From a virus, in the IMG/VR virus record IMGVR_UViG_3300022752_000301, positions 1 through 28,354 of that record: DNA of 28,354 nt; one strand, written 5' to 3'. Each line of letters opens with the position of its first letter. Within the stretch, counting starts at the first letter, position 1. A program made the translations under genes and the position numbers. The notes below the pieces were generated by a model that was not told where the DNA came from, ran no database searches, and saw nothing but the letters and a program-made list of their open reading frames with translations. Of this stretch, positions 4,250-23,501 are shown piece by piece.

Positions 4250-5281
4250 ATGGCTAAAAATCAGTATGGTGATTACATTAGTGATGACGAATTTATAGAG
4301 AAGTGGCGGTCTTATCCTAGCCCGACAGCATTAGCAGAACATTTAGGGATTGGTGTTCGTGCCGTTATGAATCGTAGGCGGTCAGTAGAGATTAGGCAGA
4401 ATATAACGCTAGTAACCGACCTTAGTTATAAGCAAGAAAAAAGCAAAGAATATATTGAAAGAGCTAGGGCTGACAAGGCAAAACGCCAAGAATTACTGCA
4501 AGAACGCCTAGATGCCACCACCCATAGCGTTAGACGGGGTATGGAGTTAGAAAAGGGTCGAGTCATCATATTTTCGGATGCCCACTTTACTGACCACACT
4601 ACAACAGGGTTTAAGGCATTAATTAAATTTATAGAACATTTCAAGCCTGTTGCTTGCATTTGCAATGGAGATGCCTTTGACGGGGCTGTACTGAGCCGAT
4701 TCCCAAAGATTAACTATGACCGCCAACCTAGCGTATTAGACGAACTAAACTACTGTAAAACGCATTTAGATGCCATTGAAAAGGTTAGACCTGCGGGCTG
4801 TAGGCTAATATGGACTCTAGGTAATCACGATATGCGTTATGAGTCGGCTTTGGTATCTCGTGCCCCTGAGTTTTCGGGGGTGGATGGGTTTAACCTCAAG
4901 TACCATTTTCCCCATTGGGAAACCTGTTGGTCGTTTTGGGTTAATGAGGATACTGTAATTAAACACAGGCATAAGGGCGGTAGGTACGCAGGCTACAACA
5001 ATGTCCAAGCCAGCTTTAGTAATATCTTTACTGGTCATACCCATGTCTTGACTTTAAGTCCTATATCAACCTTTGACCAAAAGACTTACTGGGGTGTACA
5101 AACAGGCACTTTAGCCGATGTCAACGCAGAAAGTTTTAGCTACACAGAAGATAACGCAAAGGATTGGCGGCAAGGGTTTGTCATGGCTTCGTGGGAGCGT
5201 GGCAGACTTTTAATGCCTGAGATGATTCAGGTTTGCGGAGAAAACGAGGTTGAGTTTCGTGGTGAAATATTAGAAGTATGA
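4250..5281 (+). CDS. Calcineurin-like metallophosphoesterase with N-terminal HTH
   Basis: A 343-residue metallophosphoesterase. Metal-binding motifs are SDAH (D110, H112), GDAFD (140-144), GNHD (191-194) and GHTH (262-265), which together give a complete two-metal site. Residues 15-50 (TALAEHLGIGVRAVMNRRRS) look like a helix-turn-helix, suggesting action on or near nucleic acid, and a charged helix follows. An in-frame ATG at 4220 exists, but the ATG at 4250 has AGGG six bases upstream and is preferred. The stop overlaps the next ATG as ATGA. Phage members of this family are annotated as phosphatases or nucleases; the substrate is unknown. Confidence 0.9.
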   Translation: MAKNQYGDYISDDEFIEKWRSYPSPTALAEHLGIGVRAVMNRRRSVEIRQNITLVTDLSYKQEKSKEYIERARADKAKRQELLQERLDATTHSVRRGMELEKGRVIIFSDAHFTDHTTTGFKALIKFIEHFKPVACICNGDAFDGAVLSRFPKINYDRQPSVLDELNYCKTHLDAIEKVRPAGCRLIWTLGNHDMRYESALVSRAPEFSGVDGFNLKYHFPHWETCWSFWVNEDTVIKHRHKGGRYAGYNNVQASFSNIFTGHTHVLTLSPISTFDQKTYWGVQTGTLADVNAESFSYTEDNAKDWRQGFVMASWERGRLLMPEMIQVCGENEVEFRGEILEV

Positions 5282-5433
5282 AATATCCTTTACAGCACAT
5301 ATCTATTTATTGGTTAGATTTGCAACTTTGGCTTACAAAGCGATTTTGGTGGTTTACTTTTGTAGGTGAAGACTATATTTTTAAAAGTAGGCTTGGAGTT
5401 GTTTTTGTGTATTGCAACAAGAAATTATACTAA
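5278..5433 (+). CDS. Small aromatic-rich protein, 51 residues
   Basis: A short ORF linked on both sides: ATGA overlap with the metallophosphoesterase stop and TAATG overlap with the next ATG. The product starts MKYPLQHISIYWLDLQLW and contains KRFWWFTFVGEDYIFKSRLG; it is rich in Trp, Tyr and Phe. No membrane helix of full length is clear and no family is recognised. The coupling on both ends is the main evidence that it is real. A phage-specific accessory factor is possible. Confidence 0.6.
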   Translation: MKYPLQHISIYWLDLQLWLTKRFWWFTFVGEDYIFKSRLGVVFVYCNKKLY

Positions 5434-8286: not shown

Positions 8287-8324
8287 ATAAAGTCGGTTAA
8301 TGTAACTTTTATATAACTTTATGT
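8282..8324. repeat. Overlapping inverted repeats upstream of leftward promoter
   Basis: Two interleaved inverted repeats share the same left arm region: GTTACAT (8282-8288) with ATGTAAC (8300-8306), and ACATAAAGT (8285-8293) with ACTTTATGT (8316-8324). They cover the -35 box of the leftward promoter and the end of the HNH gene. There is no U-run, so a terminator is unlikely; a second regulator-binding site is more plausible. Confidence 0.5.
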
Positions 8325-8945
8325 ATTGATTGTTTTCCAATCGGTTGTATCCCAGTTGCCTTTACCATGATTACATTCATGGCATAAAACTTGTAAGTTG
8401 TTTATATCTAAAGCAAGCTCAGGGTGCGTTTTTCTAGGCTTTATGTGGTCAACATTCATAGTTGCCCCGTTTTCAGGCGTAGCACCGCAACAAAGGCATT
8501 TGCGGCCATATTTAATTAATGCTTCCATTCTTAATTTACGCCATTCGTAAGATTTTAAGAACGCAGCACTAGCTACATTGTTGGGCTTGGTAACCTCAAC
8601 TTTTGAGGGCAATTTTTGTAAATACGATAAATTTTTAGGGGTTATTTGGCGTGGTTTTTCTTCTAAGTCAAAGGTTATTTTGCGTATGACATAGCTTTTA
8701 GACTTTGTAACTGGCGGTTCGGGTTTATGTATTTCTTTTTGGCGCACAAGGTAAGTTTCGATTGTGCCAATATTTTTTTTGACAAATTTACGAGGATTTG
8801 TGTTGTTGCGAAAAATGCCAATTTTTCCTAATGCTTTAACGCATAAATCATATGGTGATACACCTTCAAATTGACTGTGTTCTTTTCCTAAAACAAGAAG
8901 GTTAAATTTATTAATAAGTATTAAGTTCTGTTGTTCTCTACCCAT
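8319..8945 (-). CDS. HNH endonuclease
   Basis: A 208-residue protein with a C-terminal HNH domain: WRKLRMEALIKYGRKCLCCG (zinc CxxC), MNVDHIKPRKTHPELALDI (catalytic DH), and NNLQVLCHECNHGKGN (second zinc pair and final H/N). The N-terminal ~130 residues are basic, rich in Lys and Pro, and unassigned; they may bind DNA. The domain is complete and likely active on double-stranded DNA. It follows a 183-base AT-rich region, with an AAGGTG site about 10 bases before the ATG. It could be a homing endonuclease or an early nuclease. The gene ends inside inverted repeats of the next promoter. Confidence 0.85.
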   Translation of the reverse strand: MGREQQNLILINKFNLLVLGKEHSQFEGVSPYDLCVKALGKIGIFRNNTNPRKFVKKNIGTIETYLVRQKEIHKPEPPVTKSKSYVIRKITFDLEEKPRQITPKNLSYLQKLPSKVEVTKPNNVASAAFLKSYEWRKLRMEALIKYGRKCLCCGATPENGATMNVDHIKPRKTHPELALDINNLQVLCHECNHGKGNWDTTDWKTINT

Positions 8946-9128
8946 ATAGATAGTTCACCTTAAAAGAAAAACAAGAAACAAAACTACAAACCCCCCCTAC
9001 CCCCCCAAGATTTGAGAAGATACCCTGACAATTCAGGAAAGACCAAAACAAAGAAGAAAAAGAAAACATCAACTCTCTAATCAAGAAAACTGGTGTTTTC
9101 TCTTTCCTCACTCGCAGAAATAGAAAAA
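8946..9128. other. Noncoding polypurine/polypyrimidine region with G-tract
   Basis: No convincing gene lies here. On plus it is strongly A-rich with few T; on minus it is pyrimidine-rich. It contains C7-TA-C7 at 8991-9006, a hairpin CCTGA-CAAT-TCAGG at 9024-9037 and another AGAAAAC-TGGT-GTTTTCT at 9084-9101. Together with the structured RNA candidate next to it, it could be a replication origin or the leader of the HNH gene. Both are inferences. Confidence 0.5.
8991..9006 (-). repeat. G7-TA-G7 tract, potential G-quadruplex
   Basis: The minus strand reads seven G, TA, seven G. This provides four runs of three G with loops of 1, 2 and 1 bases, which suffices for an intramolecular quadruplex. 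It lies in the leader of the HNH gene and next to the structured RNA. Confidence 0.6.
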
Positions 9129-9246
9129 CCCCATAAGGTAGCTCTAAGTTGATACCACTTAACAAAAGAATCCACGACTTTTGCTAAATGCTCAAAGCTA
9201 CCCTATAGGGTCTTGTGGATTGCAACAAACAGGTATCACTCTGCCC
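9121..9246 (-). ncRNA. Candidate structured noncoding RNA with pseudoknot potential and U-run end
   Basis: Seen on minus: a 20-bp stem between 9210-9191 and 9148-9129 (16 Watson-Crick pairs, four G-U wobbles, no mismatch), followed by UUUUU at 9128-9124. Inside is a 6- to 8-bp stem, 9183-9178 with 9168-9163, whose 9-base loop holds GUGGAUU. That loop can pair with AAUCCAC at 9221-9215. UGAUACC at 9238-9232 can pair with GGUAUCA at 9156-9150. These two helices cross the 20-bp stem, so they form a pseudoknot or an alternative fold. On plus, the four wobbles become mismatches, so minus is the functional strand. It may be a discrete RNA of about 120 bases, or an attenuator upstream of the HNH gene. 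No known family is recognised. Confidence 0.6.
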
Positions 9247-9250
9247 CTAC

Positions 9251-9280: not shown

Positions 9281-9434
9281 TTTTTGATAATTGTATTGTT
9301 GTTTCTTCTTCAAGCTGTTTTACAAGGGTTGTAATTAACTTTGCAAATAAAAGGGCATTACCCTCGCCTTCAATATCCAAATGGGCTACAAGCCCATCTA
9401 CAGTTACTTTAATGGTTGCGACTGTTGTTGTCAT
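9264..9434 (-). CDS. Small protein co-transcribed with the regulator, 56 residues
   Basis: The ORF MTTTVATIKVTVDGLVAHLD to KISTQQ is coupled to the regulator by an ATGA overlap. The first half reads as beta strands, and residues 28-46 (LLFAKLITTLVKQLEEE) form an amphipathic helix. There is no membrane segment or cysteine. It could be an accessory factor of the regulator, such as an anti-repressor or co-regulator, since two-gene units of this type occur in phage switch regions. No family is recognised, and the idea rests on position only. Confidence 0.65.
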   Translation of the reverse strand: MTTTVATIKVTVDGLVAHLDIEGEGNALLFAKLITTLVKQLEEETTIQLSKISTQQ

Positions 9435-9679
9435 AGTTTTTCCTTGTTAAGGTCAGGCCAAATTAAGTGAAATGAGTCAGGAAATAAGTCTTTGCGGCTT
9501 ACCAATCCTTTGGATTCTTGCTCTAACAAAGCCCCCAAATAAACCATTTTATCGGCAGGAATACCTGAGTTTTTCCACATAGACACCGCAGGTACGCTAA
9601 TTTTGCAGATTTTGGCTATTTTGGTAGGCCCACCCAGTAACTCGATAATTTGGCTATCGGTAAACACTTTTTTCTTCAT
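9431..9679 (-). CDS. Cro/YdaS-like helix-turn-helix regulator
   Basis: An 82-residue protein with a helix-turn-helix at residues 8-38: FTDSQIIELLGGPTKIAKIC, then ISVPAVSMWKNSGIPADKMV. This arrangement (LGG-x-x-x-[IV]A, then a recognition helix with A-V-S-x-W) is typical of the YdaS/Cro family of phage repressors. The protein is a single domain without a cleavable CI-type tail, so it resembles Cro more than CI. It is divergent from the rightward early operon across 119 bases, where a palindrome overlaps the promoter. It probably represses early promoters. No integrase is visible, so lysogeny cannot be claimed. Confidence 0.85.
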   Translation of the reverse strand: MKKKVFTDSQIIELLGGPTKIAKICKISVPAVSMWKNSGIPADKMVYLGALLEQESKGLVSRKDLFPDSFHLIWPDLNKEKL

Positions 9680-22989: not shown

Positions 22990-23018
22990 ATCCCCATATT
23001 GTGATAACGGAGATTCTT

Positions 23019-23501
23019 ATGGAAGAATGGCGTGATGTTGTTGGATTTAAAGGTTTGTATGAAGTTTCTAATCATGGAAATGTTCGTTCCTTTAAAAAGA
23101 AAAAACTTAAAAAAATTAGCGTTGATAAAAAACTTAATCGACCTTTTGTAAACCTTTGGAAAGAAAACAAGCCATATGTTCGAAAACCACATAAACTTGT
23201 TCTTGAAGCATTTGTTAGTGTTTGCCCTGAAGGAATGGAAGGTTGCCATAACGATGGAAACTCTTTCAATAACCATGTTGAAAATTTGCGTTGGGATACT
23301 CACAAAAATAACATTCTTGATAAGTTTGGACATAACACCAGTAATAGTGGAGAACGCTGTAATTGGGCTAAATTGAAACAATTTCAAGTTGATGCCATTC
23401 GTAAGGACAATAGAATTCAACGCATTATTGCGGAAGAATATGGCGTAAAACAAAGCCTTATTAGTCGAATTAAAAATGGCATTCGCTGGAAACATCATTA
23501 A
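23019..23501 (+). CDS. Free-standing HNH homing endonuclease (NUMOD4-HNH)
   Basis: A 160-residue homing endonuclease. NUMOD4-like EEWRDVVGFKGLYEVSNHGN is at residues 2-21, then HNH motifs PHKLVLEAFV, GCHNDGNSFNNHVENLRW (H/N/N), then a C-terminal helix-turn-helix (IIAEEYGVKQSLISRIKNG). The start at 23019 has CGGAG upstream; an in-frame GTG at 23001 precedes that site and is unlikely. It is the only plus-strand gene inside the late block and its last 4 bases overlap the convergent adaptor gene. Such genes spread by cutting a recipient genome lacking them. A mobile insertion is therefore likely. Confidence 0.9.
   Translation: MEEWRDVVGFKGLYEVSNHGNVRSFKKKKLKKISVDKKLNRPFVNLWKENKPYVRKPHKLVLEAFVSVCPEGMEGCHNDGNSFNNHVENLRWDTHKNNILDKFGHNTSNSGERCNWAKLKQFQVDAIRKDNRIQRIIAEEYGVKQSLISRIKNGIRWKHH

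Follow-up and report, generated by a model that had tools for sequence, protein, structure and literature searches.

The minus strand of virus record IMGVR_UViG_3300022752_000301 (positions 1 to 28,354, the whole stretch of 28,354 nt analysed here and called the window) carries a structured leader module, M5, whose predicted layout of a long stem crossed by two pseudoknots is found again in lake-water phages, in clearly more than a hundred sequences. As far as checked, in Rfam and the open-access literature, M5 is a new class of RNA. Its structure and its modularity are established; what it does is less secure, and we infer, with somewhat less than even confidence, that it acts as a promoter-proximal leader or attenuator that gates the downstream RNA or gene, the pseudoknots setting the level of read-through.

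Layout of the M5 module

The features of the locus are listed below.

9280-9251, minus: sigma-70-like promoter, TTAGCA, 18 nt, TATACT (sequence match)
9244-9114, minus: M5, a 131-nt structured leader module (covariance model and 62 distinct homologues)
9244-9241 with 9232-9229, minus: P0, hairpin GCAG/CUGU, its loop being the 5' strand of PKA
9244-9240 with 9118-9114, minus: P1, an optional 5-bp closing stem, GCAGA/UCUGC
9239-9233 with 9155-9149, minus: PKA, crossing helix (7 of 7 pairs covary)
9221-9215 with 9175-9169, minus: PKB, crossing helix (7 of 7 pairs covary)
9214-9191 with 9148-9125, minus: P2, 24 pairs (pairing and covariation)
9190-9178 with 9168-9156, minus: P3, 13 pairs (pairing and covariation)
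9128-9124, minus: U-run UUUUU closing P2, intrinsic-terminator-like
8946-9113, minus: segment F, which follows M5, a strong AU-rich hairpin and then the HNH-gene leader
8319-8945, minus: HNH endonuclease gene, downstream of M5 (PF01844, E 2.9e-8)
9431-9679, minus: Cro/YdaS-like regulator gene, upstream of M5 (PF15943, E 1.2e-7; phrog_35 transcriptional repressor)

The P0 hairpin is followed by a linker and then by P2, which encloses the hairpin P3. PKA joins the loop of P0 to the bulge that separates P3 from P2, a contact of hairpin loop with bulge because the P0 loop carries its 5' strand; its outer end in the window copy is G.A. PKB pairs the P3 loop with the strand immediately 5' of P2, and with the joints that it has within that loop (2 nt at the 5' side, 0 at the 3' side) it could stack on P3 as ~20 bp beside the 24-bp P2, a geometry that the joints permit and do not prove. 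P1, whose 3' strand lies beyond the U-run, is mutually exclusive with P0.

An earlier note, made from the letters of this stretch alone, had proposed a structured RNA on the minus strand, and this holds: folded alone, the minus strand of 9110-9250 reaches -56.0 kcal/mol (z = -5.7), which none of 200 shuffles matched, against -32.2 kcal/mol (z = -3.0) for the plus strand, and the G-U pairs are kept on one strand only. Its long stem, 20 continuous pairs including 4 G-U (9210-9191/9148-9129), is present, although drawn short of the full 24 pairs; its second stem (9183-9178/9168-9163) is real as well, with 13 bp rather than the 6 described. The pairing of AAUCCAC with GUGGAUU (9221-9215/9175-9169) is exactly as given, while that of UGAUACC with GGUAUCA exists with one correction: C9232-G9156 competes with the P3 stem, and the helix is better placed at 9239-9233/9155-9149. 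That these helices cross the long stem is genuine, as both PKA and PKB covary fully. The 'two exclusive conformers' offered to account for the crossing are unnecessary, since PKA and PKB can coexist with P2, and the sole clearly exclusive pair of helices is P0 and P1. P0, P1, the homologues and the downstream modules lie beyond that description.

The 5' strand of P2 (9211-9200, minus) is itself a small inverted repeat, ACCCUAUAGGGU, and such a repeat occurs with other letters in several subfamilies (AGCCC..GGGCU, GACC..GGUC). It could represent a folding intermediate or a dimer contact.

Homologues and covariation

Exact patterns taken from both P2 strands and from the P2/P3 joint recovered ~95 close M5 loci among IMG/VR phage contigs, 62 of them distinct over the module, a kind of search that undercounts relatives. 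Most of the loci are metagenomic fragments, and the module is one of freshwater phages. In the 62-sequence alignment 95.7% of cells are paired, against 86.5% in shuffles, and 299 cells hold a double change, against 86, neither value being attained by any of 500 shuffles; sliding the partners by one base lowers pairing to ~50%. These covariation counts are of sequences, not of independent events, the changes being many and of several types, as in PKB columns 37-82, where the homologues have CG 28 times, GC 23 times and UA 3 times. The homologues thus keep the pairing and change the letters, the opposite of the outcome that the earlier note had held against its own reading (sequence kept, pairing lost), and the covarying pairs that it proposed to look for are present in every helix.

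The helices differ in how this evidence is distributed. P2 (97.8% paired) has 2 of 24 covarying pairs in the close homologues and 16 of 24 in diverged copies, P3 (97.6% paired) 8 of 13 and 9 of 13, respectively. All 7 pairs of PKA and all 7 of PKB are changed on both sides in the close and the diverged set alike; among the 62 homologues 82% of the PKB cells are paired. P0 is paired in 100% of the 62 sequences and in 91% of 54 diverged ones (both bases altered in 3 of its 4 pairs). Its loop carries the PKA strand in every subfamily checked: in 22 of 22 diverged loci inspected by hand, that strand lies between arms of 4-10 bp. P1 is 95% paired with 4 of 5 pairs covarying in the diverged set A2, and is missing from several subfamilies, for example at loci L109, L121 and L141. 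A relative reached through its HNH gene, L003, has an A-U to U-A swap inside P2.

The window copy scores 148.6 bits (E 5e-47) against our covariance model R1, being itself among the sequences from which the model was built. R1 contains the nested helices only, with PKA and PKB left out. A scan with the core of RF02932, an Rfam family discussed below, returned 112 contigs, and in dozens of these R1 detects M5 ahead of RF02932, down to E ~1e-14. In A2 (54 copies, mostly diverged), 42 of 55 pairs covary, and the full covariation of PKA and PKB is not fitted there because both helices are absent from the model that aligned the set. PKB is only 61% paired in A2, which we attribute to strand positions that differ from one subfamily to the next and that the alignment does not track. 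Beyond the reach of R1, locus L123 has the same layout in unrelated letters (P2 AGACCGUUAUGGUCUGCCGUUUC), and L135 and L130 were assigned to it by eye.

A sequence-blind descriptor, which specifies P2 plus the U-run, P3, PKA and PKB and no letters, gave 145 matches in 3.70 Mb (both strands) against 3 in shuffled sequence. Of these, 140 fall at known M5 sites on the right strand; among the remaining 5 are L191, the L003 element in two records, and MW202674, a complete phage. The matches are no argument for the U-run, because the descriptor demands it. Its first version missed L103, L130, L105, L135 and others, of which a relaxed version recovered L103.

Contig IMGVR_UViG_3300047557_000594 (44,384 bases) holds two copies of M5 with RF02932 (L115, 282-415; L118, 8264-8397); their PKA and PKB letters differ, and each copy is consistent with itself. 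In MW202674 (L215), small hypothetical proteins are annotated on the minus strand over an M5-like RNA and its follower (5007-5377), and are probably spurious gene calls.

Promoter and U-run

The promoter that the earlier note had seen on the minus strand is there, and its TATACT box ends 6-7 nt ahead of the start of M5 and P0 in the window. This spacing is fixed among the homologues although their upstream sequences differ: a match of at least 5 of 6 to TATAAT, ending exactly 6 or 7 nt before GCAG, is found in 59 of 63 distinct upstream sequences. Placed by this conserved -10 box, the RNA likely starts at P0.

At the other end, at least 4 U directly follow P2 in all 54 of the diverged copies found with the model, a set that was not selected for the U-run. 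A standard scan for short-hairpin terminators did not call P2 with its U-run; P2 spans ~90 nt, far more than the usual terminator hairpin. A likely start at P0, PKA, and P2 with its U-run are universal among the copies examined, PKB is present in most, and the window copy combines the P0/PKA/PKB/P2/P3 layout with the -10 box and the U-run. That it is a complete transcript of ~120 bases ending at the U-run, as had been proposed, is not supported: P1 pairs past that point in the main subfamilies, and only a few bases further on a second conserved segment begins, so the longer RNA also matters.

Exchangeable segments downstream of M5

M5 usually lies directly ahead of this second conserved segment, of which there are several mutually unrelated types. 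Type A follows M5 at 55 loci, type B at 12 plus 3 and RF02932 at 6 (at L028, L053, L065 and L102 by Rfam match), with the rarer types D at 4 loci, A' at 2 and E at 1; segment F occurs in the window, at L032 and at L003. Consensus folding of segment A gave poor structure, probably through a fault of the alignment. A second M5 subfamily, unrelated in sequence, precedes A-like, B-like and RF02932 segments. Some phages carry RF02932 without M5 and with a promoter-like box directly in front, and M5 is therefore an optional leader. Since subfamilies and segments are recombined, and RF02932 also stands without M5, leader and follower are separate, exchangeable modules. At L104 and L186 a short, simple terminator-like hairpin (CCUCA...GGUGGGGUUUUUC) takes the place of M5 before RF02932, behind a promoter-like box.

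The RF02932 model has no match in the window. Segment F, which takes that position here, is identical to its L003 counterpart in 159 of 169 aligned columns (94%), compared with 99 of 132 columns (75%) for M5 and 491 of 633 (78%) for the HNH gene, so that it is more conserved between phages than the gene behind it. Besides a long hairpin rich in A and U, it contains a run of seven G twice, which reads as poly-C on the plus strand. The usual RNA may have been replaced here by segment F and the HNH gene as one unit.

Gene neighbourhood

At the loci read, the gene that precedes M5 encodes a short regulator, often of the Cro/YdaS-like kind (L003 and L103 included), and in the window the genes past it include replication proteins. 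The HNH gene, which the earlier note had given as its neighbour, is incidental, as the same RNA has other neighbours in other phages; the suggestion of an origin-linked RNA found no support. In its capsid protein the window resembles Mx8-like phages. Elsewhere in the window, a plus-strand open reading frame at 23001-23501, inserted against the direction of the structural genes, reads like an HNH homing endonuclease, judged from its sequence.

An M5-like element at L191 7366-7495, the same in L216 (1860-1990), has a descriptor score of 133 and a perfect 17-bp terminator-like stem with T6. It stands directly before a 530-aa phage gene (phrog_1735), ending about a dozen bases from the start codon. 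No M5-like element is evident in L217 before a gene 67% identical to that of L191, and related genes in named phages mostly have too little sequence in front of them to accommodate such an element.

A proposed pseudoknotted attenuator and its alternatives

M5 has the sequence hallmark of an attenuator, a GC-containing stem and U-run upstream of a candidate controlled unit. We suggest that P2 with its U-run would stop most transcripts and release a stable RNA of ~120 nt. Both strands of PKA and of PKB are synthesised ahead of the 3' strand of P2, and the two helices together enclose its 5' strand; if the two pseudoknots closed first, that 5' strand would be trapped and the stem delayed, allowing polymerase to continue into whatever follows, a second RNA such as RF02932 at other loci and segment F with the HNH gene in the window. 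The exchange of P0 for P1 would then mark the read-through form. A ligand or protein favouring one folding order is conceivable, and is not indicated.

The attenuator reading, to which we give tentative preference, is favoured by the covariation of every helix, the fixed promoter spacing and the U-run after P2. The presence of mutually unrelated segments directly behind M5, the recurrence of these segment classes behind a second M5 subfamily of different sequence, and the optional nature of M5 point the same way. The L191/L216 element fits, being in the classic position of an attenuator before a start codon, but that case stands alone. It also counts against attenuation that the full-length RNA matters in the main subfamilies, where P1 uses bases beyond the U-run, a point that helps to keep our confidence below even. 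The ~90-nt span of P2 and the negative outcome of the terminator scan weigh on the same side. No dedicated antiterminator helix is evident, because all M5 helices except P0 and P1 can coexist; the exclusivity of those two does not touch P2, and a kinetic trap needs no antiterminator helix.

A stand-alone small RNA gene appears unlikely to us. M5 would in that case end at the U-run and have a trans-acting role on RNA or protein of the host or the phage, and the segment behind it would be a mere neighbour reached by leaky read-through. The promoter at fixed spacing, the self-contained fold and the universal U-run are what such a gene would have. However, the followers begin within a few bases, where no space for separate promoters is apparent, the same segment types turn up after M5 subfamilies that are unrelated to each other, and P1 both extends beyond the U-run and covaries.

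M5 could instead be a 5' domain, protective or architectural in role, within a single long non-coding RNA, its fold blocking decay and the second segment being the working part, comparable to the multi-domain ornate RNAs: the 5' end is buried in P0 or P1, P1 links it to the base just ahead of the second segment, and the second segments are conserved and exchangeable. Against this, a U-run at the module boundary would be a poor choice inside a long RNA, RF02932 is found without M5, and P1 is absent from several subfamilies, so that we rate this 5' domain as rather improbable.

We regard as quite improbable a cis-acting antitermination RNA like HK022 put, the nascent M5 binding RNA polymerase so that it passes later terminators of the replication operon. 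M5 is placed suitably, as the 5'-most part of the transcript and between a Cro-like gene and replication genes, and putL too lies just downstream of its early promoter (PMC9378689). M5 itself, however, ends in a terminator-like stem, and it has no layout in common with put, an RNA of ~70 nt with two stem-loops (PMC9378689).

A DNA-level inverted repeat without an RNA role (an origin, recombination or packaging site) would account for the strong inverted repeats and for module borders that behave like exchange points, but is highly improbable because G-U pairs are kept on one strand only, the sequence-blind matches lie on one strand beside a promoter, and crossing helices make sense for RNA.

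Returning to the attenuator, its broadest form is one that we consider doubtful: a widespread regulatory RNA of phages, new as a class, whose two pseudoknots would decide co-transcriptionally whether a terminator stem closes. It would serve as an exchangeable gate before several unrelated non-coding RNAs, keeping its layout as the letters of the pseudoknots change freely.

Comparison with known systems

Rfam 15 gives no match over 9244-9114 at the gathering cut-off and only unrelated weak ones at permissive settings (E up to 10), the best overlapping being a plant microRNA model at E 0.21, in keeping with the earlier note's statement that it knew no RNA family of this layout; nor did a search of the open-access literature find a matching description of M5. 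Two exact-pattern scans of bacterial and archaeal genomes (84,980 species) gave no match, the patterns being narrow enough that absence is not proven, and one M5 locus searched against plasmids had no match. Among named phages, DNA similarity is limited to MW202674 (Podoviridae ctn9Y15), by a segment-A match, and the descriptor had no strong match in phages whose capsids are related (Mx8, BUCT555, ppBjS10J-1, MW202489). Matches to Rheinheimera DNA (41 bases, E 0.6) are at chance level.

A structured RNA near an HNH-nuclease gene, as in the window, recalls the HEARO/IscB omega RNA. This candidate was rejected: Rfam gives no such match, the HNH protein has 208 aa and only the HNH domain, and other M5 loci have other neighbours. 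GOLLD, ROOL and OLE are likewise structured, in some cases found in phages and of unknown cellular role (PMC12286853), whereas M5 has no Rfam match, is ~130 nt long and is modular with a 3' partner. HK022 put resembles M5 as a phage RNA at the 5' end of an early transcript beside a regulator region, and is set apart by its published description, lacking the terminal U-run stem where M5 is a 131-nt double pseudoknot (PMC9378689). The orphan Rfam family RF02932, Betaproteobacteria-1 RNA, lies immediately 3' of M5 at the same locus in many phages, and is a separate family, as its 120-position model begins after M5 and it is also found without it.

M5 also resembles intrinsic-terminator attenuators and riboswitch leaders, which share the promoter, the folded leader, the GC-containing stem with U-run and the controlled unit. 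M5 differs in that its stem has 24 bp, encloses a hairpin and is crossed by two pseudoknots, and in that the unit behind it is usually itself non-coding. The mechanism we propose is of a known general kind. If our reading is right, M5 would be a new RNA class that keeps its layout while almost all letters change and a strong test case for pseudoknot-controlled transcription; it would give RF02932 a genomic address and a partner, in a group of lake phages where exchangeable pairs of non-coding RNAs occupy a recurring locus next to a regulator gene.
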